This document shows positions 37,501-54,284 of a stretch of DNA of 64,000 bases, in pieces. This DNA comes from Alistipes sp. (GTDB lineage: Bacteria; Bacteroidota; Bacteroidia; Bacteroidales; Rikenellaceae), in contig JAFZFP010000023.1 in the NCBI GenBank assembly GCA_017555905.1, positions 95,310-159,309 of the forward strand, written 5' to 3'. Every line of letters begins with the position of its first letter. The stretch's first letter is position 1. The notes under the pieces were generated by a model. That model saw only the letters and a program-made list of their open reading frames with translations. It did not search any database and was not told where the DNA came from. The translations under genes and the position numbers were made by a program.

Positions 37501-39768
37501 TTACAATCCTATTTTCGAGAGAATTTCACTTTTTGCTTTTTCGGGATACTTTATCGGACTCTTTGATGTATCTATAGTCTGCAATTTTGCTAAAGCTTCT
37601 GATATATTTCTCTCAATATAGAACAAGTATTCTGCCTCCATTGCTATCGTTATTAGATCTTTATGTCTATCATAGCTATTTTTCATAAGTTCTATAAGCT
37701 TCTGTAGAAGTTTTCTATCATCATAGGAATGGGTTCGCTCATGAACCAAACACCTAAAATAAGCTTCAATATAATACGGATTGGTGGAATCTTTTTCATA
37801 ATTATCCTTTGCCATGCAAATGGCTTCTGAATATTTTTGTTGCAAAATAAGAACCGTTACCAACTCTCTTAATGCTTTAGTGTAATTAGGGGTATCATTT
37901 AGTATTTTCTTAAATGTCCCTTCCGCTCTTGGTAGATCGCCATTAATTCTTTGCATAAATCCTTGTACAAAGAGTTTATCGCGTCCTTGCAAACCATTAA
38001 TGGCAGTATTAAACTTAACCGTTTCCTTTTCCCGAGCCAAAGACAAACATAATAAATAATAAATTTCCCTACACGCTTCAAAATACATTTTAGACTCCTC
38101 TTTCAGAAAGCCCTCACAAATTTTGATAACCATATGATATTTTCCTTTGCTATATAGTTCTCTAAGAGTTTTAATAGCAATAGATGGAACTAGCAACTTA
38201 CTATCGCTATTTCCTGCACGAATAAGAGCCTGAATCTTTAACGTGTATTCCGAAAGATCATTATCATAAAAATCTTCCTCGGCAACTAATTCTTTAGTCT
38301 TTTTTTCTATTGAGTCTCCAATATCTTTACGAGGTTGCATTGATACTCTTTCTACATAATCTGCAATTCCAGAATCGATATGAATATACTCCAAACTTGG
38401 TCCAAAAAACTCTATAATTGAAATATTGTGTAATTCTTCAAGAATGTCACAACATTCCTGTTTCCATTTCGCTCCAACAATTTCTAATAATACCTTATCG
38501 CTTACAGTGCCCAAATGCGTTAAAAGAATAACTATGTCGATTAAGGCTAACTCTCCATAAGCTTTTGCTCTACAATAATCAATGATATTTACTATAGACT
38601 TATCTCCAATAGTAACTATATGTTGAAGATTATTTCTAGCTATTAAGCGCCCATCTCGTTTTATAGTATCAATAGCCATAAAAAGTTGCGTCGGCGAACT
38701 TTTAAGATTTGTTACCCAAAAGTCAATGTCATCTGAGTCTACTTCTAGCCCTTGACCACGATAGGCATATGCCTTGAATAGGTTTCGACGATCCACTTCG
38801 CCTAATGGATGCAGTTCATAACACAACACTTCTTTTTTATCCCTAATTACATGTGTTTTGGGAGTCCTTGAGCTCACTACAAATATACCCAAGAAATTAT
38901 TTAATGAAGGATGTGATACTATCTCGTAGAACCAGTCTGCAATACTGCCTGATGTTGTTATACAACAACCGTCATCAATTATTAGAATATGCTGTTTAGT
39001 TGAGTAAGCTTTATTAAGCAACTCTACTGAAACTTCTAATTTCTTATCTTTACTCCATTCATCCCAATGGAAATCGGCAAGATTGTAAAGCTCTAGATAA
39101 CTATTCAAATACATAATAAAAGTTTCTATATAGTTTCTAGGGGATAAATGGATCTCAAGAGCATCTTTAGAATAACCTAATTTGGTCCTAATAAATTCTC
39201 TCACAAATTTTGTTCGTCCAATTCCACTACGTCCACTTGTAACAATTGCTTTAATGGAATTAAATGCAGATGAATATAATTGTGTTTCTAATTGCTCTAT
39301 CTCATTGTTACGGCCAACAAATAATTCATCCTTAAATTGAATATCTGGTCTCTTTTTATATAGTAATTGTTTTTGTTTTGCATTTATTTCGCGATGCAAT
39401 AACTTAACATTAAGGAAGGTTTTGAGATTCAAACATTCCTCTTTAGTTATCCATTCTGGGATGACAGATGTCGTAAAATTAACATCTGGGTCTATTATGT
39501 ATGGATAAAATTCTATTTTTCCATCTAACATTCTTTGACGAGCTTTTGCCACCTCTATTTTTACCCATTCAGAAGATAATGATTCTTTAGAAATTAAAAG
39601 TACAAAGATATCTGATTGTCGTATATATCTAAAAATCTCGTCTTTACTTTTCTTGGCTGGTTCAAAATCATACTCATCCAAAACACAATGTGTTCGACTT
39701 AATAATTCAACCAATTTTTTTGCGAACACTTTCTGTCTACTACTATGTGATATAAAAGCCTTTATCAT
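37501..39768 (-). CDS. TIR-STAND-TPR protein, 755 aa
   Basis: N-terminal TIR domain (residues 1-~135): KAFISHSSRQKVFAKKL, then DIFVLLISKESLSSEWVKIE with Glu72 in the catalytic glutamate position of NADase TIRs. A P-loop NTPase domain follows (~150-450): Walker A position 179-186 reads GRSGIGRT, with Arg in place of the invariant Lys, and Walker B is HILIIDDG at 260-267. The C-terminal ~300 residues are helical and TPR-like (NYTKALRELVTVLILQQKYSEAICMAK). This is the order of STAND immune sensors that deplete NAD on activation. It starts 13 nt after the AAA ATPase gene, so the two form an operon. Whether the changed Walker A abolishes nucleotide hydrolysis is unknown. Confidence 0.82.
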   Translation of the reverse strand: MIKAFISHSSRQKVFAKKLVELLSRTHCVLDEYDFEPAKKSKDEIFRYIRQSDIFVLLISKESLSSEWVKIEVAKARQRMLDGKIEFYPYIIDPDVNFTTSVIPEWITKEECLNLKTFLNVKLLHREINAKQKQLLYKKRPDIQFKDELFVGRNNEIEQLETQLYSSAFNSIKAIVTSGRSGIGRTKFVREFIRTKLGYSKDALEIHLSPRNYIETFIMYLNSYLELYNLADFHWDEWSKDKKLEVSVELLNKAYSTKQHILIIDDGCCITTSGSIADWFYEIVSHPSLNNFLGIFVVSSRTPKTHVIRDKKEVLCYELHPLGEVDRRNLFKAYAYRGQGLEVDSDDIDFWVTNLKSSPTQLFMAIDTIKRDGRLIARNNLQHIVTIGDKSIVNIIDYCRAKAYGELALIDIVILLTHLGTVSDKVLLEIVGAKWKQECCDILEELHNISIIEFFGPSLEYIHIDSGIADYVERVSMQPRKDIGDSIEKKTKELVAEEDFYDNDLSEYTLKIQALIRAGNSDSKLLVPSIAIKTLRELYSKGKYHMVIKICEGFLKEESKMYFEACREIYYLLCLSLAREKETVKFNTAINGLQGRDKLFVQGFMQRINGDLPRAEGTFKKILNDTPNYTKALRELVTVLILQQKYSEAICMAKDNYEKDSTNPYYIEAYFRCLVHERTHSYDDRKLLQKLIELMKNSYDRHKDLITIAMEAEYLFYIERNISEALAKLQTIDTSKSPIKYPEKAKSEILSKIGL

Positions 39769-39781
39769 ATCGCTTAAATAT

Positions 39782-40918
39782 TTAATTAAACATTCTATTT
39801 ATCCACATTGCGAACAACTTGTCAGTTACCGAATAGACCTTGTTTATTTCAGTAACAATATCTCGCTCCAAAAGTTTCTTAATGGCCGCCTGAACAGAGC
39901 TTGCTGACGAAAGAGCGTGTCGCTTGATAAATTGCGCTGATGTAATTTGTGTTGCCTCTCCATCTTTGGCAATAGCATATAGCAGAGCCTTCTGTTTTTC
40001 AGGAATGTTCGATAGAATTTCTCGGAATATGGTATCGTTATATGCTACCATATTAGCGATTGCGCCATCTATAATCTCTCGTGTACACTCCCCATTGTCG
40101 GTTGTATCTGCAAAGGATTCATTAAAAGTTCGCTGGATGTAGTATGTGTGTCCTTTGAATAGGTCATACACCCACTTGACATTTTCTGCAGAGATATACT
40201 TATTTCGTCTCTCAAAATGATTCATAACAAATGGTACATATATCTCAGGGACAATCGCTCTCAACTCTAAAATGTCAGCACTATTATAGAACGGTCGAGC
40301 TGAAGATGTAAACATCTCTTGCATCATATGACGCTCGCTACCAGCAAAGATAAAGTTGCTATTTTTGAGTTTCTGAATATGTGTACGCAACAGAGCCTCA
40401 ATATTTTTTTCAGGATACTTGGCAATCTGTTGAAACTCATCAATGGCCACTATACAAGGCTTGTCGGCATTCGCCAAGTAGCGGAAAATTTCCTCCAATG
40501 TATATTCTGGTATCTCAATATCGCCCAACTCTAAATTAAATGTCGGCAAGTTGGTTATAGGATCAAAACCAAATTTGCCATTTATCGATTTGATGGTCTG
40601 TATAAATAGGTTGACCATCCTGTGACTGCGCGGGAGCAAAGTGTCATAGATAGTGCGACCGAGCAGGTATGTAAACTCTCGAAGACTCGATGTGTGGAGT
40701 ATGTCTATAAAGAATGTATAGTACTCGTTAGCGATTTCAGGTTTGTCGTAGCAAAACTGAATAAGTCCAGTCTTGCCCATACGGCGAGGTGATATAACAA
40801 CAAGATTATTCCCATTGGTGATTGATTTAATCAGACGAGCAGACTCATTTACTCTGTCGCAAAAATACTCAGGCTCAATTTTACCCGTAACAATAAAAGG
40901 ATTCTTAACTTTTGCCAT
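39782..40918 (-). CDS. AAA ATPase of the archaeal-ATPase (ATPase_2) type
   Basis: 378 residues. The family trademark SPRRMGKTG stands in for Walker A (~43-51), Walker B/sensor is PCIVAIDEFQQI, and a GSERHMMQEMF motif with an arginine follows. The C-terminal ~70 residues form a winged-helix-like end (SSASSVQAAIKKLLERDIVTEI). Such ATPases are common in Bacteroidota and of unknown cell role. Here it is the first gene of an operon with the TIR-STAND protein (13-nt gap). A close paralogue lies at 51335 in front of a different pair. Confidence 0.85.
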   Translation of the reverse strand: MAKVKNPFIVTGKIEPEYFCDRVNESARLIKSITNGNNLVVISPRRMGKTGLIQFCYDKPEIANEYYTFFIDILHTSSLREFTYLLGRTIYDTLLPRSHRMVNLFIQTIKSINGKFGFDPITNLPTFNLELGDIEIPEYTLEEIFRYLANADKPCIVAIDEFQQIAKYPEKNIEALLRTHIQKLKNSNFIFAGSERHMMQEMFTSSARPFYNSADILELRAIVPEIYVPFVMNHFERRNKYISAENVKWVYDLFKGHTYYIQRTFNESFADTTDNGECTREIIDGAIANMVAYNDTIFREILSNIPEKQKALLYAIAKDGEATQITSAQFIKRHALSSASSVQAAIKKLLERDIVTEINKVYSVTDKLFAMWINRMFN

Positions 40919-41530: not shown

Positions 41531-41598
41531 CTTATTTGAGCCACAACTTAGTAAAGTTCTTATTATCAATAACTTTAACATTCTGCATAGGAAAGTAA
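41531..41598 (+). repeat. 68-bp dispersed repeat, left copy
   Basis: Begins CTTATTT, contains CCACAACT and TATCAA, ends TTCTGCATAGGAAAGTAA. The right copy at 51020-51087 has the same length and the same blocks at the same spacing. A companion block AGCTATCATTGTTTAT sits just upstream (41492-). Confidence 0.65.
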
Positions 41599-41752
41599 CT
41601 AACGCCCTCTAATACTCACTAACAAACGCTAACGCTCACGAAAAGCAACAGAATTTTCTACAAAAATAGACGAATAAATCCCGAAAGCTAAACTCAACTT
41701 TCGGGATTTTTCTATGCTTTAATGTCTTCAACAAAAATATCTCGCCAAGTTT

Positions 41753-41802
41753 GCAATGAGGCGCAATGGAGTGCAATGGAGTGCAACGAGCTGCAATAAT
41801 AG
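41753..41802 (+). repeat. Iteron-like 10-bp tandem repeats (5 units)
   Basis: Units start GCAATGAGGC, GCAATGGAGT, GCAATGGAGT, GCAACGAGCT, GCAATAATAG, head to tail without gaps. The two middle units are identical. Confidence 0.6.
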
Positions 41803-41883
41803 GGCGAAGAGAATTGTACTTTCTACAAAACAGCATTGGTTGTCGGTGGAGAAAGTCGTTCACAACTTTTTTTGTAAAAAAAA

Positions 41884-41926
41884 TCACTCATTATCAAACC
41901 TTCCCTTCAATGCCCCTCTATACTTA
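41884..41926 (+). promoter_or_regulatory. Conserved leader of the HTH gene (copy A)
   Basis: TCACTC, then CAAACCTT, then CTATACTTA with TCACTC-to-TATACT spacing of exactly 35 nt, as in copy B (55793-55835); a T/A-rich tract precedes both. TATACTTA is likely a -7 variant. Confidence 0.55.
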
Positions 41927-41955
41927 ATATGAATTCACTAAAAAACAATAACAAA

Positions 41956-42312
41956 ATGGAAACGAAAGTTGTATCATTTGAGCAGATGCCAGAGCTCATT
42001 CAAAATCTGGTAGAGAGAATTGAAGCACTTGAAAAGACAGTTCGCGAGAAGCAGCAACCACAGCCACTCGAAGGAGAGCTGATGAGCGTGGAGGATGTTT
42101 GCAAGCTACTTGGCAAATCCAAATCTGCGGTGTACCGAACGGTGAGGTGTCACGACATCCCGTTTATCCGCCAGGGCAACCGATTGTACTTCGATCGACC
42201 AACCATCAAGAAATGGCTTGAGAAGAAGCAAAATATCGAGTGCATCACCAATATGGAGGAGTTCGAAAAGTTTATGACTCCCGACCCTTGGCGTTATAGA
42301 AATCGACGATAG
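41956..42312 (+). CDS. Excisionase-like helix-turn-helix protein
   Basis: 118 residues from the ATG at 41956, the first start downstream of the presumed promoter. An N-terminal coiled coil (LVERIEALEKTVREKQ) is followed by a winged HTH of the MerR/excisionase (HTH_17) type: MSVEDVCKLLGKSKSAVYRTV, then PFIRQGNRLYFDRPTIKKWLEKK. Such proteins accompany integrases and control excision or transfer of Bacteroidota mobile elements; here no integrase follows, only a terminator and the restriction-modification operon. Paralogue at 55901. Confidence 0.8.
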   Translation: METKVVSFEQMPELIQNLVERIEALEKTVREKQQPQPLEGELMSVEDVCKLLGKSKSAVYRTVRCHDIPFIRQGNRLYFDRPTIKKWLEKKQNIECITNMEEFEKFMTPDPWRYRNRR

Positions 42313-42343
42313 TAAAGCCGTTTGATGAATTAGACTAAGATTG

Positions 42344-42369
42344 AAAAGGCGGATTTAGTCCGCCTTTTT
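42344..42369 (+). terminator. Intrinsic terminator of the HTH gene
   Basis: AAAAGGCGGA / TCCGCCTTTTT, a textbook stem with a 5-nt loop. Confidence 0.85.
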
Positions 42370-42471
42370 CTTGTTCATATTAGACAGAACGACAATGCCT
42401 CTTCTACCTTATATTTATAAGATTGTTCACAAACTTTTTAGCAATATCACCTCTATCTGACAAATTTTGCT

Positions 42472-42479
42472 TATTTTTG
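42472..42479 (+). promoter_or_regulatory. -7 element of the HNH/methyltransferase operon
   Basis: TATTTTTG, 29 nt upstream of the ATG at 42509; the longest in-frame start upstream (42467) lies before the promoter. Confidence 0.5.
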
Positions 42480-42508: not shown

Positions 42509-44611
42509 ATGGATACAAGAGCATTTGTTGAGAGTTTGGTCCCTGGTAATTATTTTATTACCAAATCTATGGAGTTGACAAAAAGTCAGACTTCCGGAAC
42601 TTTATGGTATACTAAAAAATTCATTGTACTTTATTATTACATATTCCTTAACGGGAATATAAATACACTCGCGACAGCAAAAGAAATTTGCGATATTTTT
42701 GATGGATATATCAATTCGTTACCTGAGGGTCTGCAGGGAAACGCCAAAAATTATTTTTACGCATCACACAGTGTAGCAGATCTTAGAAATAAAGATTTTA
42801 AATTGTTTGGTAAGTTTGCAGGAACAAGACAGTTCTCTTCTGACGCAGAACGAATTGCCTACTATGAGAGTGCAAAAAAATATTATTTTGCCTTTTTGAT
42901 GGAGTCTGGAGGTCAAAGTGGAGTCAATAGATGGATCAAAGACCGTTTGTATACCGATGATTTTTCGTACAAGAAAATTGACGATACAATTACCAGGTGG
43001 GCTGAAGATAACCGCGATAACCCTAACGCATCCAATCAGTGGCTTAAAAAGTATAAACAGGGGGAGCGAGATATTGCCATTGCGGGAATGCGTAATGACT
43101 ATATGGCATTTGTAAGAAATGAAAGACAAATTTTGTTCTATTACGGATTCTTTCATTCAAAATCAAGTGGTAGTAACGACCGAGAATTTAGCAGTTTAAC
43201 CCCAATAGGAGAACTAGCATTACATAGTAATTACTATGAATTGATAGCCGTATGGGAGCATCAAAAAATCAAGATGCTATCTCAACCTGTGAATATTGAG
43301 ATTAGGGGTCTTGAGAATAGTCGCATCAGCAACACAGACAAGTTTGCTGTAAATCTCAACCCATATCTAACGATATTAAAGTCACTGAAAAATTCCCTTG
43401 GGTTTTCAAAGGAAGCGTATCAATATGTTATATCTAGATTATCTATATATCCTAACGATGGAGTAGATGTCTCTGAGCAATTCATTGAAAGGGTCAAAAG
43501 GAAAATTGGAGGTTTTAATCGAAGGGCAGATATTGCCACAGAGGATTTTAATAAAGAGATCCTCAAATATATTTTAGGCATTAGGAGTGATTTAGCAACA
43601 GACAATCACCTCAACCCAATTGGTCTATGCAAATGGGATGGTAATGGTTTGTCAATTACAAATCAAGCGAAGTTGGATCGTTTGATAAAGATTTACACGA
43701 CTTTATGTAAGTATAAGGTTGAAAAGTACAATGAGCTATTTCAAAATTGCACGCACGAAATAAAACGACAATACAAGTTCAACGCTAGTGCGTTACCTTA
43801 TGTTCTTAATCCGAAGATTAAGATTGATTGGGATATGTACAATATCCATGCTGACATTCTTATTCTTCTATCTTCAAGTGTGCTAATTTTAGAAGCAAAA
43901 GAGGGATGGACACTTACTCGTGATACAATAGACATCTTTGTCAATGGAATCAAAGAACTTTGCCCAAATATTTTACATATTTTAGGTTTAACAAGCAAAG
44001 CCGCATTGAGGAAGGAACTTAGAAATATTGTTGAGGTATTTGATAAAGAAAGATATGGTGTTTATCTTGAAAACAGTGCTGATGAATACCAAACTTCAGT
44101 GGCATCGTATCTTGATGAATCATTGGCAGATCTCGAACAAAAGATTAAAGACAACTCTGCTATGACATCTGTATATATTGATGGTGTACGCAAGCGAAAT
44201 ATGGTACTTATCGGATTGATCAAGTCATATAATCTGCAAAAGTATACAGCTGATGGACAGTTACTAAAATGTGAATGCTGTGGTAATCCGACATTCCTTA
44301 CTTACAAGAATGAGTCATATGTAGAGTATCATCACCTTATCCCATTTAGTGAATATGATGGTCCAGATCATAGTCTAAACATTATTGCATTGTGTCCGAT
44401 GTGTCACAGAAAACTCCACTATCTGAAGCAGGAGGATAAACGAGAACTATATGATAGCGTAGCATTGAATAGCTATACTAATTTGTCAATCGAAGATAGA
44501 TTGGTGGAGTTATTTGCTGAGCGGAAGTTGAAATCATATCAGCTTGAATTCCTGTTGGCGGATAATGCAATAGACGAGAATGCGTATAATAGAATTTTAC
44601 AAACAGCATAA
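42509..44611 (+). CDS. Large HNH endonuclease, probable restriction enzyme
   Basis: 700 residues from the ATG at 42509. The C-terminal part holds a complete HNH nuclease: CECCGNP, then VEYHHLIPFS, then LNIIALCPMCHRKLHY, with two CxxC-type zinc pairs bracketing the catalytic histidines. The first ~580 residues show no known domain; a hydrophobic beta strand followed by LEAKEGWTLTRD (near 470) might be a second nuclease-like strand. It is the first gene of a five-gene operon and overlaps the next gene by one base (TAATG). It is likely the DNA-cutting subunit, or a target-recognition plus cutting subunit, of the system. Confidence 0.75.
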   Translation: MDTRAFVESLVPGNYFITKSMELTKSQTSGTLWYTKKFIVLYYYIFLNGNINTLATAKEICDIFDGYINSLPEGLQGNAKNYFYASHSVADLRNKDFKLFGKFAGTRQFSSDAERIAYYESAKKYYFAFLMESGGQSGVNRWIKDRLYTDDFSYKKIDDTITRWAEDNRDNPNASNQWLKKYKQGERDIAIAGMRNDYMAFVRNERQILFYYGFFHSKSSGSNDREFSSLTPIGELALHSNYYELIAVWEHQKIKMLSQPVNIEIRGLENSRISNTDKFAVNLNPYLTILKSLKNSLGFSKEAYQYVISRLSIYPNDGVDVSEQFIERVKRKIGGFNRRADIATEDFNKEILKYILGIRSDLATDNHLNPIGLCKWDGNGLSITNQAKLDRLIKIYTTLCKYKVEKYNELFQNCTHEIKRQYKFNASALPYVLNPKIKIDWDMYNIHADILILLSSSVLILEAKEGWTLTRDTIDIFVNGIKELCPNILHILGLTSKAALRKELRNIVEVFDKERYGVYLENSADEYQTSVASYLDESLADLEQKIKDNSAMTSVYIDGVRKRNMVLIGLIKSYNLQKYTADGQLLKCECCGNPTFLTYKNESYVEYHHLIPFSEYDGPDHSLNIIALCPMCHRKLHYLKQEDKRELYDSVALNSYTNLSIEDRLVELFAERKLKSYQLEFLLADNAIDENAYNRILQTA

Positions 44612-45438
44612 TGGCGAAAAAAAATATAGATAATTTTATCGGTCAAATAACAAATGGGGATAGTGCTGTCGTACTTTCCACAATAAAAAGTAATAGTGTC
44701 GACCTAGTCGTTACTAGCCCTCCATACGATGAACTGAGAGATTATAATAATGACTCAGTTTGGGATTTTAATAGTTTTAAGAAAATCGCTCGCCAGTTAT
44801 ATCGAGTAGTTAAGGATGGCGGTGTTGTGGTATGGGTTGTTGGCGACTCTGTTGTTAAGGGTAATAAATCGCTTAGTAGCTTTAAACAAGCTTTGTATTT
44901 TCAGCAGATAGGATTCAACATGTTCGATGTCATAATCTACGAAAAAGCAGGTACTGCTCCTCCACATAAGAACAGATACTTTAATGCTTTTGAGTATATG
45001 TTTGTTTTGTCAAAGGGTAATCCCAAAACCATCAATCTACTTGAAGACAAACCGAACAAATGGGCGAATCATTCTACATTTGGCAATGTCACTAGAAGAG
45101 AGCAAGATGGAACATTGACTCCGAAAGGTCGAAAGGTTGTGAAGCCTTTTGGTGTTAGAACTAATATATGGAGATATAACAACGGAAAGGGGTTCTCTAC
45201 CAAAGATAAGATTGCATATGAACATCCTGCGATCTTCCCAGAGAAACTGGCACAAGATCATATAATATCTTGGTCTAATGAGGGAGACATTGTTCTTGAT
45301 CCGTTCTGTGGCAGCGGGACTGTTGCAAAAGTTGCTAGTCTACTAAATAGGAAATGGGTAGGAATTGAAATATCATCCGAATATTGTAAAATCGCGAATG
45401 AACGATTGGGTTTAGTATGTACGGAACAATTATTTTAA
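44611..45438 (+). CDS. DNA methyltransferase, beta class (SPPY)
   Basis: 275 residues. Catalytic motif IV TSPPYDELRDY at 35-45 comes first and the SAM-binding motif DPFCGSGT at 230-237 last, the beta-class order of amino-methyltransferases. SPPY suggests N4-cytosine methylation, although N6-adenine cannot be excluded. It is overlapped by the previous gene (1 bp) and the next (22 bp). No separate target-recognition domain is obvious; the insert between the motifs (~110-200) could supply it. Confidence 0.88.
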   Translation: MAKKNIDNFIGQITNGDSAVVLSTIKSNSVDLVVTSPPYDELRDYNNDSVWDFNSFKKIARQLYRVVKDGGVVVWVVGDSVVKGNKSLSSFKQALYFQQIGFNMFDVIIYEKAGTAPPHKNRYFNAFEYMFVLSKGNPKTINLLEDKPNKWANHSTFGNVTRREQDGTLTPKGRKVVKPFGVRTNIWRYNNGKGFSTKDKIAYEHPAIFPEKLAQDHIISWSNEGDIVLDPFCGSGTVAKVASLLNRKWVGIEISSEYCKIANERLGLVCTEQLF

Positions 45439-46823
45439 ATAATGCTATAGAGAATAGCATTTCACTACTTGGCAAATATAAAGATAGTATAGATCAGAGT
45501 GGTAATATCTTTGTATTGGTTAGGAATGAAGTAGATGCAGTAGGTGATGTGACTTCTGATTTTTTGGATGTCATATATGCCGCCACTTCGATAGGCTATC
45601 TGTATGTGAATACTATTGTGGTCCCAACAGACGATAGAATTAATTCTGATTTACCCGACAATGTTTTGTATATTATATGGTTAGCAAAGGATAAGAATCA
45701 TTTCTTCAATAAAGATGTGATTAGAGAGAGTCATATATGGAAAGATGTTGAGTGGGGCAAAAGAGCAAAGAACTATAACCCTAAAGGCAAAGATCCTGGC
45801 AATGTATGGATTCCAACAAAGGATGATGGCAAGGCTCATATAACAGATCACATTCTATTAAGCCTATCGGATGTAATTAATAGATTACATAGTTGTTCGG
45901 CACAGAAGGATTTGGGGACATTGTATGTAACTTCAAAGGGAATTGATAAATTAGGTCTTATTGACGGCATTCACATCGAGCAGCTATCGAGTCCTGATGT
46001 TGTAACTGAATCAAAACCTTACAGGCCAAATCCTCCTCAAATCAGCCAGCAAAAACAAATAAGTGGAACAGTTGTATTTGGTACTTCGGAGAGAATGACT
46101 AAAATTCCCAATGGAAGTGTTAATGTCGTTGTAACATCTCCTCCATACTGGGACTTAAAGGATTATTTTAAAGAGGGACAAATTGGGCAGGAGTCATATC
46201 AAACATACCTTAATCGACTTTATAATGTATGGAAGGGGTGTTATGATAAATTATCCGAAGACGGCTCTCTATGGCTTAATATTAATATTAGGACTAAGAA
46301 TGGCTCTGTCATTCTTATCCCTAGGGATTTCGTACTACAGTGTAAAAAAATTGGATTCCACTATAAAGGTGTTCTAATTTGGCACAAGTCATCAGGCATA
46401 CCCACCCATGATAAAAATATTGTGGATAGACACGAATATGTCCTTGTTTTCTCAAAAAGTGAGAAACTTAATATAAACAGTAGGATTTGCGATTTTTCTG
46501 ACTATAAAAATGGGAAGATAAATGGCGGACTATTTTGGAACATAAATAGGAAAGCTGGTAGTGTGGGTAAACAGTTTATACATCCTGCTATTTATCCCAA
46601 TGATCTTGTATCTCGCATTATACAGATTACAACTAGTGAGAATGACATGGTATTGGATCCATTTTTAGGTAGTGGCACAACCCTAATTGCAGCAATAAAA
46701 GAAGGACGAAACTGTATTGGATATGAGTACAATGAGGGATTCAAGGAGTTGATAATTAGTCGATATTTTATGGAAGTTGGCAAAGATAATATCACCTTTA
46801 TAGAATCTAAAAACAAACGATAG
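45417..46823 (+). CDS. Tandem methyltransferase: degenerate N-terminal half plus active SPPY domain
   Basis: 468 residues. The C-terminal half is a second beta-class methyltransferase with TSPPYWDLKDY at 240-250 and DPFLGSGTT at 414-422. The N-terminal ~205 residues look like the middle part of another methyltransferase (FVLVRNEV; IIWLAKDKNHFF; KGKDPGNVW, a segment usual in these enzymes) but no SPPY or FxGxGT motif is present, so this half is catalytically dead and perhaps reads the DNA target. The start lies inside the previous gene (22-bp overlap), so translation is coupled. Confidence 0.8.
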   Translation: MYGTIILNNAIENSISLLGKYKDSIDQSGNIFVLVRNEVDAVGDVTSDFLDVIYAATSIGYLYVNTIVVPTDDRINSDLPDNVLYIIWLAKDKNHFFNKDVIRESHIWKDVEWGKRAKNYNPKGKDPGNVWIPTKDDGKAHITDHILLSLSDVINRLHSCSAQKDLGTLYVTSKGIDKLGLIDGIHIEQLSSPDVVTESKPYRPNPPQISQQKQISGTVVFGTSERMTKIPNGSVNVVVTSPPYWDLKDYFKEGQIGQESYQTYLNRLYNVWKGCYDKLSEDGSLWLNINIRTKNGSVILIPRDFVLQCKKIGFHYKGVLIWHKSSGIPTHDKNIVDRHEYVLVFSKSEKLNINSRICDFSDYKNGKINGGLFWNINRKAGSVGKQFIHPAIYPNDLVSRIIQITTSENDMVLDPFLGSGTTLIAAIKEGRNCIGYEYNEGFKELIISRYFMEVGKDNITFIESKNKR

Positions 46824-46854
46824 AAGAGACAACTAATACATCATACATACTGTC

Positions 46855-48702
46855 ATGGAAGTCAACCTAAAACAAGCAATATCAATGTTTTTCTCGCAGT
46901 CTTCATTTGATATGGTATATTTGGAGGCTGTAGCTAATGCATTGGACGCAGGAGCATCAAATATAAAGATTCATTTTTCAGCATCAACGCTTTCTAATGA
47001 GAAATCATTCAAGTTGGTGATCTCTGATAATGGTATTGGCTTCACTGATGAACGCTATAAAAAGTTCTGCAGACTTTTAGATGTTGATAAAGATGACAAA
47101 GCTCATCGTGGACTTGGTAGACTGGTTTATCTATTCTACTTTGATAAGGTAAAGGTTTCAAGTTACTATAATGATAATAAGTTTCGCGAATTCAATTTCG
47201 ACAATGATTTTGGAGCGCAGAATGCCGATAATAGTACGACCCTAGAAGAAGACCATAATAATGGTAGTATCCTGGAAATGACAGGATACAATCTTAAGAA
47301 GTTGAAAACGGCAGACTTTGCAAATGCAGAGTGGATAAGAAGACGTATCCTTAAAAAATTCTATTCACTATTGTATAAAGCAAAGAAAGAAAATCGTGAT
47401 ATTACCATTACCATTCAGACAACGATAGGCACAACGGATGAGGTGCGTACTATTAGTGCCGCATCAATGCCTAATCTTGAGGAAAAGACGATTATCACTA
47501 AGCATTCGTTAGATGGAGAAATGACGCTTTACTACTCGATTAATGAGTGCGAGGTAAAAGATTCGTCAGTTATCACCGCTATTTCTATTGACAATAGAAA
47601 TGAATCTATTGAAGTATTTGCCGAGGATCGTATACCTGCAGGATACGACATGGTATTTATTCTGTACTCTGATTCCTTCCAAGGTCAGACAGACGCTACC
47701 CGTCAAGTAATTACATTGAGACCGGACACTCTAAGAATGCTGCAAAAAACCTTCCGCGATGAGATTATTACGCTCCTCGAGGAAAGAGCTCCAAAGGTTA
47801 TTGAAGAGACTCAGCATGAAGCCGAGCAAATCAATGATCAATTTCCTCATTTGCGAGGATACTTCGAGGAGAATACTATTGGCATTAGCTCAAAAGCTGA
47901 TGTGATTAAGGATGCTCAAACTAGATTCATACGCGAACAACGAGAAATATTATGCAAGTCAACAGAAAGTTTGACCGATGCAGATTTTGAGAAATCAATG
48001 AATCTTGCCGGTCGTGCTTTGACTGAGTATATCTTGTTTAGACAGAAAACCATAGATCGTCTAAAAGAGATAGACAAGAAAGATTTAGAATCTACCATCC
48101 ATAATGTTATTGTTCCGCAGAGGACTGTGTTGCGTGAGGGTAACTTTAGTCAAGATGTCTACAAAAATAATTCGTGGATACTCGATGATAAGTTTATGAC
48201 CTACACAACCGTTCTTAGCGAGATGGAGATGTCAGACCTTATAAAAGAATTAACAAAGGATGAAAATGTAGAAAGAAATGATGATAGACCAGATATCGCA
48301 GTTATTTTCTCTAATGATCCAAGTACATCTGAGAAGTTTGATGTGGTTATAATTGAATTGAAGCATAAAGGTCTAAAGTCGGAAGATAACATAAGGGTTG
48401 AAGCGCAGCTTGAAAAACGGGCACGTGATCTGTTTGCGATATATCCTGATAAAATTCAGTCTCTATGGCTATATGGCGTTGTAGAACTTGACAACGATTA
48501 CAAGGCTCTCTTGTCAACAGCAGGTTACCAGCCTATGTATTCAAAGGGTAATATATTTGTTCATACAGGAGACATAACAGTAGACTGGGAGTCAAGAACA
48601 AAAATTCCTGCAGTTCGATATATTTTGGACTTTGATGCATTAGTTAATGATGCTGATGCTCGAAATAAAACATTCTTGAATCTAATTAAAAGTAAATTTT
48701 AA
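46855..48702 (+). CDS. MORC/MutL-like GHKL ATPase with C-terminal PD-(D/E)XK nuclease core
   Basis: 615 residues. N-terminal GHKL (Bergerat) ATPase: N-box EAVANALDAGA (Glu24, Asn28, Asp31), DNGIGF at 58-63 and the lid RGLGRL at 85-90. A transducer-like domain follows (~200-330), then a helical stretch, then a restriction-nuclease-like core: RPDIAVIF (Asp480) and VVIIELKHKG (Glu501, Lys503), the D...ExK set. GHKL proteins of this MORC-like type are known from bacterial restriction-modification operons, where ATP-driven dimerisation may control DNA loading. Fourth gene of the operon. Confidence 0.8.
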   Translation: MEVNLKQAISMFFSQSSFDMVYLEAVANALDAGASNIKIHFSASTLSNEKSFKLVISDNGIGFTDERYKKFCRLLDVDKDDKAHRGLGRLVYLFYFDKVKVSSYYNDNKFREFNFDNDFGAQNADNSTTLEEDHNNGSILEMTGYNLKKLKTADFANAEWIRRRILKKFYSLLYKAKKENRDITITIQTTIGTTDEVRTISAASMPNLEEKTIITKHSLDGEMTLYYSINECEVKDSSVITAISIDNRNESIEVFAEDRIPAGYDMVFILYSDSFQGQTDATRQVITLRPDTLRMLQKTFRDEIITLLEERAPKVIEETQHEAEQINDQFPHLRGYFEENTIGISSKADVIKDAQTRFIREQREILCKSTESLTDADFEKSMNLAGRALTEYILFRQKTIDRLKEIDKKDLESTIHNVIVPQRTVLREGNFSQDVYKNNSWILDDKFMTYTTVLSEMEMSDLIKELTKDENVERNDDRPDIAVIFSNDPSTSEKFDVVIIELKHKGLKSEDNIRVEAQLEKRARDLFAIYPDKIQSLWLYGVVELDNDYKALLSTAGYQPMYSKGNIFVHTGDITVDWESRTKIPAVRYILDFDALVNDADARNKTFLNLIKSKF

Positions 48703-48704
48703 TT

Positions 48705-49427
48705 ATGAAGAAGATTTGGAATTACATAAATAATACACCACTTAATCCTATCATACTAATTTTGTTCTTCACCATTGTAGGAGGAGTACTAATGATCATA
48801 CTCGAAGACAATGAAAATAGTATGGATTATTTTCTATCATGTGTCGGATTGGGTATTAGTGCAGCTGTCGTGCAATGCACATTAATACAAAATCGCATCC
48901 AAAAGGATAACATAAGAATCCAACTTTTTGATAAACGATATGGAGTATTTCAATCTGTTTTAGATACTATTACCATTATCAAGAGAGATAACTGGGATAG
49001 ATACATTCTTTTCAATGAGAATGACATCAACAAACAGATGATACTTATTGAAGAGAACTTGTATAAATCTGTACAACTTTCTGTATGTCTGTTTGACAAC
49101 GATTTGCATTCCAAATTAGTTGCAGTGAATAACGCCTTCTGTAAAGTCACAAAGGTGTATAAAAATATGCTTACAGCCAATCTGGAGAATTTGGCAAATC
49201 AAGGAAATGCTCAAGAATACCTTTCAGTCTTGACTACTCACATATTGTCAAGTGCAGGACTTGGCTCCGAGAAATACGAAAATGATCTTAAAGAGAAATT
49301 TCCTAATGTGTATATCAATTTAATGGCGTTTTCTAAAGAGTGCGAAGCATATATTACATTTGTTGAAGAATGTGAGATTCTCAAAGATCTTGGTAGATAT
49401 GTTGTCGTTGACAAATTAGATAAATAG
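48705..49427 (+). CDS. Two-helix membrane protein of the restriction operon
   Basis: 240 residues, starting 2 bp after the ATPase stop, so it belongs to the operon. Two transmembrane helices lie at ~16-32 (IILILFFTIVGGVLMII) and ~43-60 (FLSCVGLGISAAVVQ), followed by a ~175-residue cytoplasmic, helical domain. No family recognised. It may anchor the machinery at the membrane or act as an effector; both are inferences from position. Confidence 0.65.
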   Translation: MKKIWNYINNTPLNPIILILFFTIVGGVLMIILEDNENSMDYFLSCVGLGISAAVVQCTLIQNRIQKDNIRIQLFDKRYGVFQSVLDTITIIKRDNWDRYILFNENDINKQMILIEENLYKSVQLSVCLFDNDLHSKLVAVNNAFCKVTKVYKNMLTANLENLANQGNAQEYLSVLTTHILSSAGLGSEKYENDLKEKFPNVYINLMAFSKECEAYITFVEECEILKDLGRYVVVDKLDK

Positions 49428-49438
49428 AAGATTTGCAT

Positions 49439-49531
49439 GTGACCAAAACCTCCATTCGATTTTATAATGACCGTGAGGTGCGAGCTGTTAAGGGTGAGCG
49501 AATGAGAAAATTTACTAACTTTGCAATATGA
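49439..49531 (+). pseudogene. Relic of a DinD/BRO-type gene start
   Basis: Thirty codons from GTG at 49439. The first ~17 residues (TKTSIRFYNDREVRAV) match the well-known start of DinD/BRO-N proteins; then the frame runs into unrelated sequence and the Fic promoter and stops. Only the head of the gene is left. Confidence 0.5.
49516..49523 (+). promoter_or_regulatory. -7 element immediately before the Fic start
   Basis: TAACTTTG, only 4 nt before the ATG at 49528, which would give a leaderless or nearly leaderless mRNA. Confidence 0.5.
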
Positions 49532-50598
49532 GCGAATTTGATAAATATATAGTACAAGGTGAGCCGAGCAAGAAGGCGAAAGCTAATGCGTGGCAGACGG
49601 CGATCGGTCTTCAAGATGTGGATGGTTTGAAGCCGTCGGAGTATCTTATCAAGACTGCGGTGCAGCATATCGAGGGCGATATTACTATCGACCAAGTCAA
49701 GGATATGCTCGACACCTACTACGAGACCAAAGATGTTCGAGAGCACCTTGACGATGAGCGCACAGAGGAGGCAGACAAAGTTTCGGCACGCATTACCGAG
49801 ATTTTGTCCGAGCAGTCGTTTTCGTTCACACCCGATTATCTGTTAAGGATTCACCGCAGGTTATTTGAGGGTATCTACAAGCACGCCGGTCAGTTGCGCA
49901 ATGTCAATATCACAAAGAAGGAATGGGTGCTGAATGGCGACACGGTGCTCTATTCGAACTACGATATGCTGCGTGAAACGCTCGAATACGACTTTGAGCA
50001 GGAGAAAAAGACCAACTATTCGGTGCTGAATGCCGATATGGCGGTTAAGCAGATTTGCAAGTTCGTATCGGGCATTTGGCAGATACATCCTTTCCGTGAG
50101 GGCAACACCCGCACTACCGCTGTGTTTACGATGAAGTGGTTGCAGACATTCGGATTTAATGTTGACAACGATGTGTTCAAGGATAATTCGTGGTACTTCC
50201 GCAATGCTCTTGTCCGTGCGAACTACAACAATATTCCGAAGCGTATCTTTGCCACAACGGAGTACCTAGAGATGTTTTTCCGAAACCTCATATTTGGCGA
50301 AAAGAACAAGTTGAGCAACCGTAATTTGTTGGCTGGCGAGCTCCAAAGTGCCACGCCTGAAATTTCAAAGAGCCAAAATGGCACTTTGAATGGCACTTTG
50401 AACTGCAATCTTGACGAGTTGGCACTTTTGCGATTTGTGAAAGAGAATCCCGATGCCACCCAGGTTGAGATTGCCAAGCATATCGGAAAGTCAGAAAGAA
50501 CCGTTAAGCGTATGACGCCTGTGCTTATTGAGCGTGGACTACTCGAACGAGAGAATGGCAAGCGCAATGGCAAGTGGGTGGTTAAGTGCGAAATTTAG
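49528..50598 (+). CDS. Fic-family protein with winged-helix C-terminus
   Basis: 356 residues. The Fic active-site loop HPFREGNTRT (His187 onward) is intact, so it probably transfers AMP or a similar group to a protein hydroxyl. An N-terminal helix segment YLIKTAVQHIEGDITIDQ resembles the VbhA-type inhibitory helix ([S/T]xxxE[G/N]), with Val where the Ser/Thr is expected. After the Fic domain a C-terminal winged HTH (ATQVEIAKHIGKSERTVKRM) may let it bind DNA and repress its own promoter. Toxin-like regulator or defence protein; target unknown. Confidence 0.85.
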   Translation: MSEFDKYIVQGEPSKKAKANAWQTAIGLQDVDGLKPSEYLIKTAVQHIEGDITIDQVKDMLDTYYETKDVREHLDDERTEEADKVSARITEILSEQSFSFTPDYLLRIHRRLFEGIYKHAGQLRNVNITKKEWVLNGDTVLYSNYDMLRETLEYDFEQEKKTNYSVLNADMAVKQICKFVSGIWQIHPFREGNTRTTAVFTMKWLQTFGFNVDNDVFKDNSWYFRNALVRANYNNIPKRIFATTEYLEMFFRNLIFGEKNKLSNRNLLAGELQSATPEISKSQNGTLNGTLNCNLDELALLRFVKENPDATQVEIAKHIGKSERTVKRMTPVLIERGLLERENGKRNGKWVVKCEI

Positions 50599-50619
50599 AA
50601 TAATCATTATTGATACGAC

Positions 50620-50650
50620 AACACCTTGTGAGGTTCACTCACAAGGTGTT
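50620..50650 (+). terminator. Intrinsic terminator after fic
   Basis: Perfect 13-bp stem AACACCTTGTGAG / CTCACAAGGTGTT, then CTTTTTT. Confidence 0.85.
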
Positions 50651-50670
50651 CTTTTTTATCCCCTCGAAGT

Positions 50671-50768
50671 GGTTAGGCTTACTAACCAGTTGATCAGGAA
50701 ACAAGCCAGTTGGTTAGTCTCGCTAACCGACTACAAATCTTATCAAATTGACTACAATTTGTAGTCAA
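50671..50768. repeat. Cluster of three hairpins
   Basis: GGTTAG-GCTTA-CTAACC (50671-50687), GGTTAG-TCTCG-CTAACC (50712-50728) and the perfect 21-bp palindrome TTGACTACAA-T-TTGTAGTCAA (50748-50768). The motif CCAGTTG repeats between the first two. Confidence 0.65.
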
Positions 50769-50844
50769 CTGCATTCCCAAAAATCAGATGTATTCAATCT
50801 GTATACCATTTAACATTCTACAATAGAAAGTGGACATTCACAAC

Positions 50845-50886
50845 CCCCAAAAACCATATCGACCACAAGCGACATGGTCTTTGGGG
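50845..50886. repeat. Long inverted repeat
   Basis: CCCCAAAAACCAT (50845-50857) pairs with ATGGTCTTTGGGG (50874-50886), one mismatch; no T-tract. Confidence 0.5.
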
Positions 50887-51019
50887 CTATGTTATTATTT
50901 ATCTATAATTTAACTCGTATTTTCTATGAAAAATTACTATCTTTGTGTCAGAATCAGGGCGCCAAGTGGCAAAAGCTAGAAGTAGCCATTAGCCACAATT
51001 GCAAGGCTCAATTGATGCC

Positions 51020-51087
51020 CTTATTTTACCCACAACTCCGTAACTATCTGACTATCAAGGTGGTTTACTTTCTGCATAGGCAAGTAA
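51020..51087 (+). repeat. 68-bp dispersed repeat, right copy
   Basis: Begins CTTATTT, ends TTCTGCATAGGCAAGTAA; see the left copy at 41531-41598. The block AGCTATCATCGTTTATCAAA follows at 51176-51195, whereas in the left copy it precedes. Confidence 0.65.
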
Positions 51088-52480: not shown

Positions 52481-53158
52481 ATGTTAAATATGGGACGAAT
52501 TATTAACATAGGAAAAATATATAGTATTCAAGACTTAAATACACCATCTCAAAAATTACACTCTAATTATCGCGATAGAGTTAAAATTGTCGTAATTGAT
52601 GATGAAGATTTTATCTATTTTGATGACTTACGCCGCAGTGGATTTAATATCACTCAATACCATGATATTGAAGATCTTCAAACATTAGACGCATTTCATG
52701 TGATTATTTGTGATATCAAAGGGATAGGTAGGCATTTTAATTCACGAGCAGAAGGCGCTTTTATTATCAGAGAACTAAAGAAAAAACATCCATATAAAGT
52801 ATTTGCTGCATATACAGGGTCAACTCACCGTATAGACATAAATGAATACCTCCTAGGTGTCCATATTATTAAGAAAGATATAGATATGGATGATTGGTGT
52901 AATGAAATTGATTCACTCGTAAGAAAAGCTGTTAGTCCACAATATGTATGGACTGCAATTAGAGAAATCCTTCTAAATGAGAATGTTTCAACATTAAGCA
53001 TTGCAAGATTAGAACACAAATATGTGGATATCATCCTTAATAAGAATGGCGATTTCACCGATCTCTTAACAGATAAAAAAATTAAAATTAGCGACAATGT
53101 TAAGGATATAATAACTACATTAATATCAAATATAGCACTAGGATTTTTGTTTAAATAA
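52481..53158 (+). CDS. Receiver-domain protein, atypical response regulator
   Basis: 225 residues. A complete receiver domain spans ~34-140: acidic pair Asp40/Asp41 (VVIDDEDF), phospho-acceptor Asp78 (VIICDIKGIG), Thr112 (FAAYTGS) and a lysine (IIKKD, ~131). The C-terminal ~80 residues are helical and do not look like a DNA-binding output domain. The ATG at 52490 is an alternative start. It begins 12 nt after the ATPase and ends 1 nt before the kinase gene, so all three form one operon and this is the probable partner of the kinase. Confidence 0.75.
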   Translation: MLNMGRIINIGKIYSIQDLNTPSQKLHSNYRDRVKIVVIDDEDFIYFDDLRRSGFNITQYHDIEDLQTLDAFHVIICDIKGIGRHFNSRAEGAFIIRELKKKHPYKVFAAYTGSTHRIDINEYLLGVHIIKKDIDMDDWCNEIDSLVRKAVSPQYVWTAIREILLNENVSTLSIARLEHKYVDIILNKNGDFTDLLTDKKIKISDNVKDIITTLISNIALGFLFK

Positions 53159-53159
53159 T

Positions 53160-54284
53160 ATGAAATACATTTCACCATACCCATATAAATTATCAAATGG
53201 AGGAGAATTAATTAATGGCGCAGTATTTAATACTCCAAATTTCTGTACAAGAAACAAACAGAATCCACAATGTAAAAAATTTTATAGATCATTAAAAAAG
53301 CGTGGGGAATTCACTTGTCCATATGGTTTTGGTGTCAATGTGGTAGATATTAAAGGAAAAGATGTAATATTGACATGTCTAAATGTTGAAACTATATCTA
53401 AAAAGAAAGAAGTTCAAAAAAGACTTGGTGCAGCGGAATTCTTTCCTCGATTGCCATATGATGAATACAAAAAGATTCTTGCTAATTTTCTCCAAATGAT
53501 AGGAGAAACATCGGATTTTGATGAATCATATTCTATTGAAACAAGACAAGCCTTTTTACAAGAGCAACAAGAAATATTGGATGATACTTTACATGAAATT
53601 CGCAAATTAAATTCTCAGCTAAAGGATACTACAAAGCGTCTATCTTCTGCTCTTAGCAGTATAAGAAATCCAACGGACCAAATAGAGTCTCTAAACTTAG
53701 ATGTATTTTCAATTACAAACCTGATGTCAATTCGACTGGATGCATATGATTTACAGGTAAATCCTGAACTTAATCTTGACTCTGGAAAGCGCCCAATTGC
53801 AATATACAAAAAGGTGGAAAAAGTTTATAAGTGCTTGAGAAGTGCAGCCCAGAAGAGAGGAATAAATATCCGATTGAACGGGGCTTCTCACAATCAATTT
53901 AATGCGACAAATGCCATTGAGATAGCCTTTTTTATCATTATAGATAATGCAATAAAATACTCTCCTACTAACAAGGAAATATCTGTCAATTTTTATGAAC
54001 GAGATGATACGTTAATATTAAATGTAAGGAATTTGGGCATTCGACCTGCAGAACACGAGAAAAGCACTTTATTTCATAGAAGTGTGAGAAGCAAGCATGT
54101 GGAATCAATAGAAGGTCGTGGTCTCGGATTGTATTTATTGAAACAAATTTGTGATACCAACAACATAAAGATCGATCTTAAAATAGAAAATAAAGACCTT
54201 TATTTTGAAAATGGTATAGCATATGCACCTTTTATAGTTTCAATGGAGTTCCGTAATATGATCATACCTGATGAGAATTTTTAA
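53160..54284 (+). CDS. Atypical soluble histidine kinase with N-terminal Cys cluster
   Basis: 374 residues, no membrane segment. H-box-like LHEIRKLNSQL (His145), N-box FFIIIDNAIKYSP (Asn263) and G2 box GRGLGLYLLKQI (~319-330) define a HATPase domain; the G1 box is weak (NLGIRP instead of DxGxG). The N-terminus carries three cysteines, Cys29, Cys38 and Cys53 (NFCTRNKQNPQC, then FTCPYGF), which could bind a metal or iron-sulfur cluster and sense redox or nitrosative stress. A coiled coil covers ~130-165. Partner of the receiver protein just upstream. A defence or stress role is inferred from the locus. Confidence 0.72.
   Translation: MKYISPYPYKLSNGGELINGAVFNTPNFCTRNKQNPQCKKFYRSLKKRGEFTCPYGFGVNVVDIKGKDVILTCLNVETISKKKEVQKRLGAAEFFPRLPYDEYKKILANFLQMIGETSDFDESYSIETRQAFLQEQQEILDDTLHEIRKLNSQLKDTTKRLSSALSSIRNPTDQIESLNLDVFSITNLMSIRLDAYDLQVNPELNLDSGKRPIAIYKKVEKVYKCLRSAAQKRGINIRLNGASHNQFNATNAIEIAFFIIIDNAIKYSPTNKEISVNFYERDDTLILNVRNLGIRPAEHEKSTLFHRSVRSKHVESIEGRGLGLYLLKQICDTNNIKIDLKIENKDLYFENGIAYAPFIVSMEFRNMIIPDENF

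Follow-up and report, generated by a model that had tools for sequence, protein, structure and literature searches.

We examined a five-gene operon at positions 42509 to 49427 of a 64-kb stretch of Alistipes sp. DNA (the window, positions 95310 to 159309 of its contig in a 1.77-Mb assembly of 29 contigs), which encodes an HNH nuclease, two methyltransferases (MTases), a GHKL ATPase with a nuclease motif and a membrane protein. Position numbers refer to the whole window, and the open reading frames (ORFs) were named 1 to 5 by operon order. The ORF listing of the window placed all five genes on the + strand, with a TAATG overlap between the HNH and MTase 1 genes, a 22-bp overlap between MTase 1 and MTase 2, a 31-bp gap between MTase 2 and the GHKL gene and a 2-bp gap between the GHKL and membrane genes, exactly as a first-pass annotation made from the sequence had described. 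The ATG start of the HNH gene at 42509 lies inside a TTG-started ORF beginning at 42467. All five genes are probably transcribed as one operon. The earlier annotation had proposed an undescribed restriction system of five components; its assignment of the operon to restriction-modification (R-M) or defence was supported, and two features that it had not remarked were added, namely, an extra degenerate half in MTase 2 and a conserved helix-turn-helix (HTH) gene, terminator and promoter block directly upstream. The features of the locus are as follows.

41929..42312 (+): HTH_17/excisionase-type DNA-binding gene, leader of an exchange site; PF12728 42.3 bits, TIGR01764 35.3 bits
42343..42369 (+): intrinsic-terminator-like hairpin 3' of the HTH gene; 12 pairs, T-rich tail
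42408..42421 (+): palindrome CTTATA-TT-TATAAG, candidate operator; alignment of HTH loci
42472..42479 (+): TATTTTTG, candidate cassette promoter element; fits TAnnTTTG, alignment
42509..44611 (+): restriction (R) gene, 700 aa, C-terminal HNH nuclease; PF01844
43850..43900 (+): candidate second nuclease motif D...ExK, HNH protein aa 448-464; by eye
44611..45438 (+): MTase 1, beta-class-like N6/N4; PF01555, TSPPY and DPFCGSGT
45417..46823 (+): MTase 2, a degenerate half (aa 1-205, nt 45417-46031) and an intact MTase (aa ~218-450); PF01555
46855..48702 (+): GHKL ATPase with C-terminal PD-(D/E)XK motif, paraMORC3-like; PF13589, motif alignment
48705..49427 (+): two-segment membrane protein; hydrophobicity, shared with a second genome (G091)
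49437..51087 (+): right edge of the exchange site, including a Fic gene (49528-50598); DNA matches to G021 and G121

Pfam matches above cut-off confirmed the earlier calls of an HNH enzyme, two MTases and a GHKL ATPase. For the last of these, HATPase_c_3 (PF13589) scored 36.1 bits against a cut-off of 25, and PF02518 was also matched. The ATP-binding positions E24, N28, D58, G60, G62, G86 and G88 were invariant in all 34 aligned sequences. The nuclease core that had been claimed for this protein was upheld in part: positions D480, D496, E501 and K503 were likewise invariant (34/34), but Pfam did not recognise a nuclease and no library model scored above its cut-off for the C-terminal region. 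PADLOC returned only a marginal match (E 0.01), and a profile search of PDB gave weak matches confined to the GHKL part, the best being PMS2 (E 0.012). PMC2292703 (Iyer et al. 2008) describes paraMORC3 proteins as a GHKL domain joined to a nuclease of the restriction endonuclease (RE) fold, found in R-M systems or standalone. The protein resembles this family in its N-terminal GHKL domain with conserved motifs, its candidate C-terminal RE-fold motif, its prevalence in Bacteroidota and its R-M-linked or standalone occurrence, and it may be called paraMORC3-like on the strength of motifs and description, short of proven membership. For the S5 domain that follows GHKL in paraMORC3, the pertinent observation is that the close clade of this protein matched a wider GHKL-nuclease group at full length in a profile comparison. 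The same order of domains, a GHKL ATPase followed by a PD-(D/E)XK nuclease in one protein, occurs in VcSduA of Vibrio cholerae, a Shedu type with a GHKL domain, whose anti-phage activity is reported to be lost with ATPase or nuclease mutations (PMC12137116). VcSduA carries the signature DUF4263, which was not detected here. PADLOC includes Shedu models. Canonical Shedu was rejected as an identity for the GHKL protein, there being no DUF4263 Pfam match at E values of up to 1 and no PADLOC Shedu match at up to 0.01.

The genomic contexts of this protein were then compared across species. A scan of species genomes with a three-sequence alignment yielded 124 confirmed GHKL relatives, and the analysis went on with the best 80 loci; 43 of these (L040-L082; BLASTP E up to 1e-20) formed a close clade and the remaining 37 a wider family, to which the close clade matched at full length in a profile comparison (hhalign probability 100, E 5e-54). 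R-M genes were marked by BLASTP (E up to 1e-8) against reference proteins identified by Pfam, the MTase of L079 being marked through its match to MTase 1, and a run was defined as same-strand genes with gaps of up to 150 bp. Near-copies (L065-L068, L076 and L080; L041, L042 and L077; L069 and L070) were counted apart. The GHKL gene stood in a run with R-M genes at 22/43 close loci, compared with 8/488 control genes (non-R-M genes of at least 250 aa outside the GHKL run, pooled from all 80 loci; Fisher p 9e-21 for close loci versus controls, uncorrected for relatedness) and 3/37 wider-family loci. One of the 22, L081, was counted through an open frame common to a GHKL fragment and a type ISP protein. 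The other 21 close loci lacked a run with recognised R-M genes, a count to be read in light of the references having come mostly from GHKL loci, so that other R-M genes may be missed.

The R-M genes adjoining the GHKL gene were of several types: type I, type ISP, HindIII-type II, Eco57I-type IIG, paired C5-MTases, and DUF6079 with an N6/N4 MTase. Type I arrangements included HsdM-HsdS-x-GHKL-HsdR (L048), HsdM-GHKL-HsdS (L044) and HsdR-GHKL-HsdS (L066-L068 and L080). Elsewhere the orders were GHKL-ISP (L041, L042 and L077), IIG-SMC-like-GHKL (L074), GHKL-C5-C5-AAA (L069 and L070), DUF6079-GHKL-MTase (L075) and HindIII-MTase-GHKL (L079, with a broken GHKL frame). The type I, ISP, HindIII and IIG contexts are not named for paraMORC3 in the portion of PMC2292703 on which the comparison draws. 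A tree was built from 34 sequences, the window protein and those of 33 of the 43 loci; L047, L066-L068, L076 and L078-L082 were left out as near-copies or as truncated, broken or distant sequences. On this tree the type I label required 8 changes, at least 6 of them forced by starred branches, and the label "alone" required 11; the latter label was also given to L046 and L061, where type I genes lie near but outside the run, and to L050, where a gene of the HsdM cluster lies on the other strand. The window protein formed a long branch without a starred nearest set. These results suggested that the GHKL nuclease behaves as an autonomous gene which has repeatedly become embedded in R-M operons of several types.

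An alternative explanation for the same contexts would have the GHKL nuclease serve R-M systems of all types as an accessory subunit, an ATP-driven clamp that would be recruited by R or M enzymes to finish restricted DNA, here together with the HNH enzyme. The 22 loci at which it is inserted among hsd genes or adjoins other R-M genes, often tightly spaced, would be expected of such a subunit, as would the shared ISP-GHKL frame (L081/L026) and the order HindIII R-MTase-GHKL in L079. However, 21 of the 43 copies lie outside runs with recognised R-M genes, the type of partner changes freely on the tree, and VcSduA, with a similar layout, is described in PMC12137116 as an independent anti-phage system. 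A subunit role was therefore judged unlikely, and an autonomous, embedding nuclease was preferred.

GHKL matches were found in 8/268 genomes of the family, the own genome included. Two foreign copies were full length (L023 and L024), without an R-M reference match in the fetched stretches, and in two other genomes of the genus with close matches (G044 and G131; L025 and L027) the gene was a fragment. The L025 and L027 copies are truncated within the same gene neighbourhood, without an R-M reference match, and are apparently decaying standalone copies. Six plasmid records matched at most 28% of the protein, and phage records gave no GHKL match. A separate observation concerned the contig of L081, in which a 1151-aa frame (L026, 469-3924) comprises a type ISP protein (47% over 920 aa) and the first ~170 GHKL residues; this copy looks incomplete. 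GmrSD type IV genes were also noted in runs with GHKL and type I R-M genes (L056, 5303-7003; L062, 11878-13953), and these two operons thus hold three kinds of restriction gene. A literature search linking R-M accessory gene, ATP-binding protein and Bacteroidetes found no paper, and among papers joining GHKL, HsdR and operon PMC8011034 was the one on R-M.

Two hallmarks of type II R-M, a dedicated nuclease gene with an intact catalytic motif and dedicated MTases beside it, were found in the first three genes. The HNH domain (PF01844; 35 bits, cut-off 21.4) occupies residues 588-637 of the first protein, with CxxC and HH...N...H strings. Both MTases matched PF01555 (N6_N4_Mtase; 154.7 bits for MTase 1 and 185.6 bits for MTase 2, cut-off 26.7) and contain TSPPY and DPFxGSGT strings, the MTase 1 form being DPFCGSGT. 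MTase 1 was 44% identical to the MTase of L079 and 50-58% identical to three plasmid MTases; within 6 kb of the latter there was no annotated restriction gene, many of the neighbours being hypothetical, and at one of these loci a PD-(D/E)XK family gene lay ~4 kb away. The HNH enzyme and the two MTases look like a type II module, by analogy probably one with type IIS-like behaviour. HNH enzymes paired with two MTase activities are known in HpyAV and Hin4II, and HpyAV cleaves outside its asymmetric site (PMC2816704). The likeness, which is one of description, lies in the pairing of an HNH-type R enzyme with two MTase activities and in an R enzyme unlike others outside the HNH site; the known systems have C5 and N6A MTase activities, whereas both MTases here match PF01555, the R protein here is longer and the degenerate MTase half is extra.

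This degenerate half is a 205-residue part that precedes the intact MTase, which begins at about residue 218 of MTase 2. Residues 1-205 matched a gene of Haloquadratum walsbyi (30% over 141 aa, E 2e-12) that directly precedes a homologue (39%) of the intact part. The H. walsbyi gene covers only positions 17-183 of the 221 of the PF01555 profile and so is without the ends, where the TSPPY and FxGxG motifs lie. MTase 2 was matched in 6/268 family genomes, its own included, at E values of up to 1e-30, and all five foreign matches fell within residues 204-445. The separate genes in H. walsbyi and the restriction of family matches to the intact part led us to read MTase 2 as a live MTase naturally fused to a dead MTase half. 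A search for the degenerate half in phages gave nothing. In plasmid PL100 of H. walsbyi C23 the two genes are separate, the degenerate gene overlapping the 39%-identical one, and a 303-aa protein without a Pfam match, a candidate nuclease by eye, follows them; the row of three (L039, 5237-7752) is a haloarchaeal R-M candidate in its own right.

The R protein matched known proteins in its HNH region only. HNH protein matches were found in 4/268 family genomes including its own, the other three being confined to residues 585-651. A search of 393 genomes of the order with the first 560 residues matched two, the own genome being one, and the sole foreign match covered residues 7-64 (58 residues) at a contig end; among 395 genomes of the phylum only the own genome was matched, and plasmids gave no match at E values of up to 1. 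By these comparisons, this region is an orphan without recognised relatives. A D...ExK string at residues 448-464, spotted by eye, is a candidate second nuclease motif. Two phage records matched the HNH protein, in the HNH region only, and the whole protein had no match in viral contigs. A phage origin was rejected on the basis of this restriction, of the absence of GHKL phage matches and of five protein scans against viral contigs, which gave no relative.

An alternative is that the HNH protein is a modification-dependent nuclease (type IV, McrA-like); the MTases would then have some other enzyme as their partner or act as an epigenetic pair. The best matches of the HNH region are indeed of that kind: in PDB the 5-methylcytosine-specific restriction enzyme A (6ghc; E 2e-9, residues 588-650) and in PADLOC the type IV nuclease models, which match the HNH part only (mREase_IV, E 4e-11). 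These matches are limited, however, to 50-75 residues of the HNH region, which is common to many nuclease classes, and a type IV enzyme sharing a transcript with two active MTases would be in danger of cutting the host's own DNA. We consider this alternative decidedly improbable and retain the HNH enzyme as the probable partner of the two MTases.

Hydrophobic 19-residue windows begin at residues 10-18 and at residues 42-44 of the fifth protein and mark two segments, in agreement with its earlier description as a two-helix membrane protein. The protein has no Pfam family above cut-off and no PADLOC match. It was found in 2/268 family genomes, its own and another of the genus, G091, whose copy has 89% identity across 247 aligned positions. 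There it follows a different cassette, containing a C5-MTase, two McrB/McrC-like proteins (our own label; they match PADLOC REase_II models), a PDC-M30A-like protein and further unassigned genes. The same HTH gene heads both cassettes (80% aa identity). DNA matches between the window and 38 kb of G091 were limited to 41576-42381, 48715-49502 and one 29-bp stretch. These results suggest that the membrane protein belongs with the exchange site and not with this R-M module.

The upstream block was examined by a DNA search with 41560-42400, which matched 31/136 genomes of the genus including its own. Many matches were short, and the longer ones in same-genus genomes had 74-92% identity. Nine stretches from eight genomes were fetched among these, and six were used; together with the window and G091, they gave eight loci. 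A second stretch from G121 and that from G109, both cut at a contig end, were dropped, as was G053. The cassettes behind the HTH block were TmtA-like (G121), PDC-S41 (G021 and G113), type I R-M (G169), type IIG (G038) and a set of C5-MTase, helicase and SpbK-like TIR genes (G028). The leader block reached 42481 in G021 and G113 (L155 and L161), 28 bp short of the start codon of the HNH gene, and 42499 in G169 and G038 (L156 and L160), 10 bp short of it. The terminator sequence varies among relatives and its hairpin, judged by eye, remains. TAnnTTTG is the Bacteroidota -7 consensus. The TATTTTTG element fits it, and TAnnTTTG was kept in 5/5 loci with the promoter block; the 33-base promoter stretch had a single copy in its own genome at up to 3 mismatches. 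On the right side, DNA matches resumed at 49437-49445 in G021, G028 and G038, just 3' of the membrane gene. The stretch 49440-50655 was 89% identical to G021 through the Fic gene (PF02661, 52.8 bits; winged-helix C terminus; PADLOC PDC-S72, E 2.8e-127; + strand), 50711-51087 matched G121 and 50737-51086 matched G021, and the match with G028 and G038 was 45-50 bp only (49437-49489). This pattern suggested an exchange site, bounded by a conserved leader on the left and by a trailer that is conserved in part on the right, at which cassettes replace one another, presumably by homologous recombination in the flanks.

In the HTH gene product itself, TIGR01764 scored above its cut-off of 28.8. The MAD1 model of methylation-associated defence (MADS), NF047737, scored 30.4 bits, far under its cut-off of 80, and MADS was rejected. 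Small regulator genes upstream of diverse immune operons are also a feature of regulated defence islands (RptR, CapW and CapK+CapS), the RptR regulator (PMC12255303) and the CapK+CapS regulators (PMC13373217) each being described in another group. The site here differs in its HTH_17-type protein and in its fixed leader, which includes a terminator and partly a promoter. The functions of the predicted promoter and candidate operator, and control of the promoter by the HTH protein, are proposed from sequence features. A literature search combining defence-system hotspots with Bacteroidales and Alistipes found no paper. Separately, G121 carries two copies of the HTH leader (L162, 8632-9014; L154, 34-918; 93% identity over 290 bp), one of them directly preceded by the right-flank stretch (window 50978-51087), as if exchange sites stood in an array.

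A single undescribed restriction system made up of all five genes, in which the membrane protein would anchor a complex of nuclease and ATPase, is suggested by the operon layout and the promoter block ahead of it and is very improbable, since no second set was found in the genomes examined, the outcome that the first-pass annotation had itself named as speaking against the full set, and both the GHKL gene and the membrane gene are found beside other systems. Nor was the full set found to be already catalogued: PADLOC named MTase models for proteins 2 and 3 and, for the HNH portion of protein 1, type IV nuclease models, with a marginal match for protein 4 and none for protein 5. No helicase match was found among the five proteins in Pfam, PADLOC and further profile-model scans, whereas the MORC/helicase R-M operons of Iyer et al., as described in PMC2292703, contain a superfamily II helicase.

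Overall, we interpret the locus as an exchangeable defence cassette, probably one operon expressed from a conserved upstream platform and holding two or three functionally separate units, and give this interpretation a probability of roughly 0.6. The HTH gene, terminator and promoter block would make up the platform from which the cassette is transcribed. In the first unit, the strands of an asymmetric site would each be modified by one of the two MTases, and DNA lacking these marks would be cut by the HNH enzyme, which would recognise it through its novel N-terminal region. In the second, the paraMORC3-like ATPase-nuclease would close on DNA in an ATP-dependent manner and cut it, acting autonomously while embedded in R-M operons of many types. 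The membrane protein, as a possible third unit, would belong with the site.

Several findings weigh against this interpretation. Because the searches for relatives of the HNH protein gave none of full length, its partnership with the MTases is argued from gene layout. L079 joins an MTase 1-like gene and a GHKL gene behind a HindIII-type nuclease, which fits a closer link between MTase 1 and the GHKL nuclease, and tight spacing (e.g., 2 bp) and the frame shared by ISP and GHKL sequences also fit a subunit role. The promoter block was present in 5/8 HTH loci, the matches of G121, G028 and G091 ending at the terminator, and two of those five loci, G021 and G113, have the same PDC-S41 cassette (91% nucleotide identity). 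The palindrome was intact in three of the five (the window, L155 and L161), two bases shorter in L156 and disrupted in L160; taken singly, the one site in the window was not significant against shuffles. The HTH match in G053 ends within the HTH gene, and what follows that gene lay outside the scan. Many of the relatives are contigs of metagenome-assembled genomes.

A wider interpretation can be offered tentatively, and is unlikely: the locus would be a defence docking site, in which cassettes are swapped in behind a fixed HTH regulator, terminator and promoter and so come under ready-made control, with the GHKL nuclease as a general second-line effector for any adjoining R-M system, backed by an HNH enzyme whose recognition domain is new and an MTase that has a dead partner half built in. 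Three features stand out: the orphan HNH enzyme, the site with its leader and cassettes, and the repeated embedding of the GHKL nuclease in different types of R-M operon. Should this nuclease prove to be a partner that embeds generally in R-M systems, a family known from gene context since 2008 would gain a testable role. The conserved HTH leader in front of different cassettes would illustrate how newly acquired defence systems come under control that is already in place, and the HNH protein is a restriction enzyme whose DNA-recognition region has no recognised counterpart.

The surroundings of the operon were also surveyed. The G+C content was 33-43% at 30-60 kb of the window, compared with 41-51% across the first 30 kb, and this low G+C content together with other defence-like genes makes the region look like a defence island. 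A gene for a TIR-NLR-type protein lies at 37501-39768 on the - strand (PADLOC TIR-NLR, E 1.5e-82; TIR_2 above cut-off), adjoined by an ATPase_2 gene at 39782-40918 on the same strand. Downstream, a gene pair at 52481-54284 (+) matched the candidate defence models PDC-M43A and PDC-M43B.

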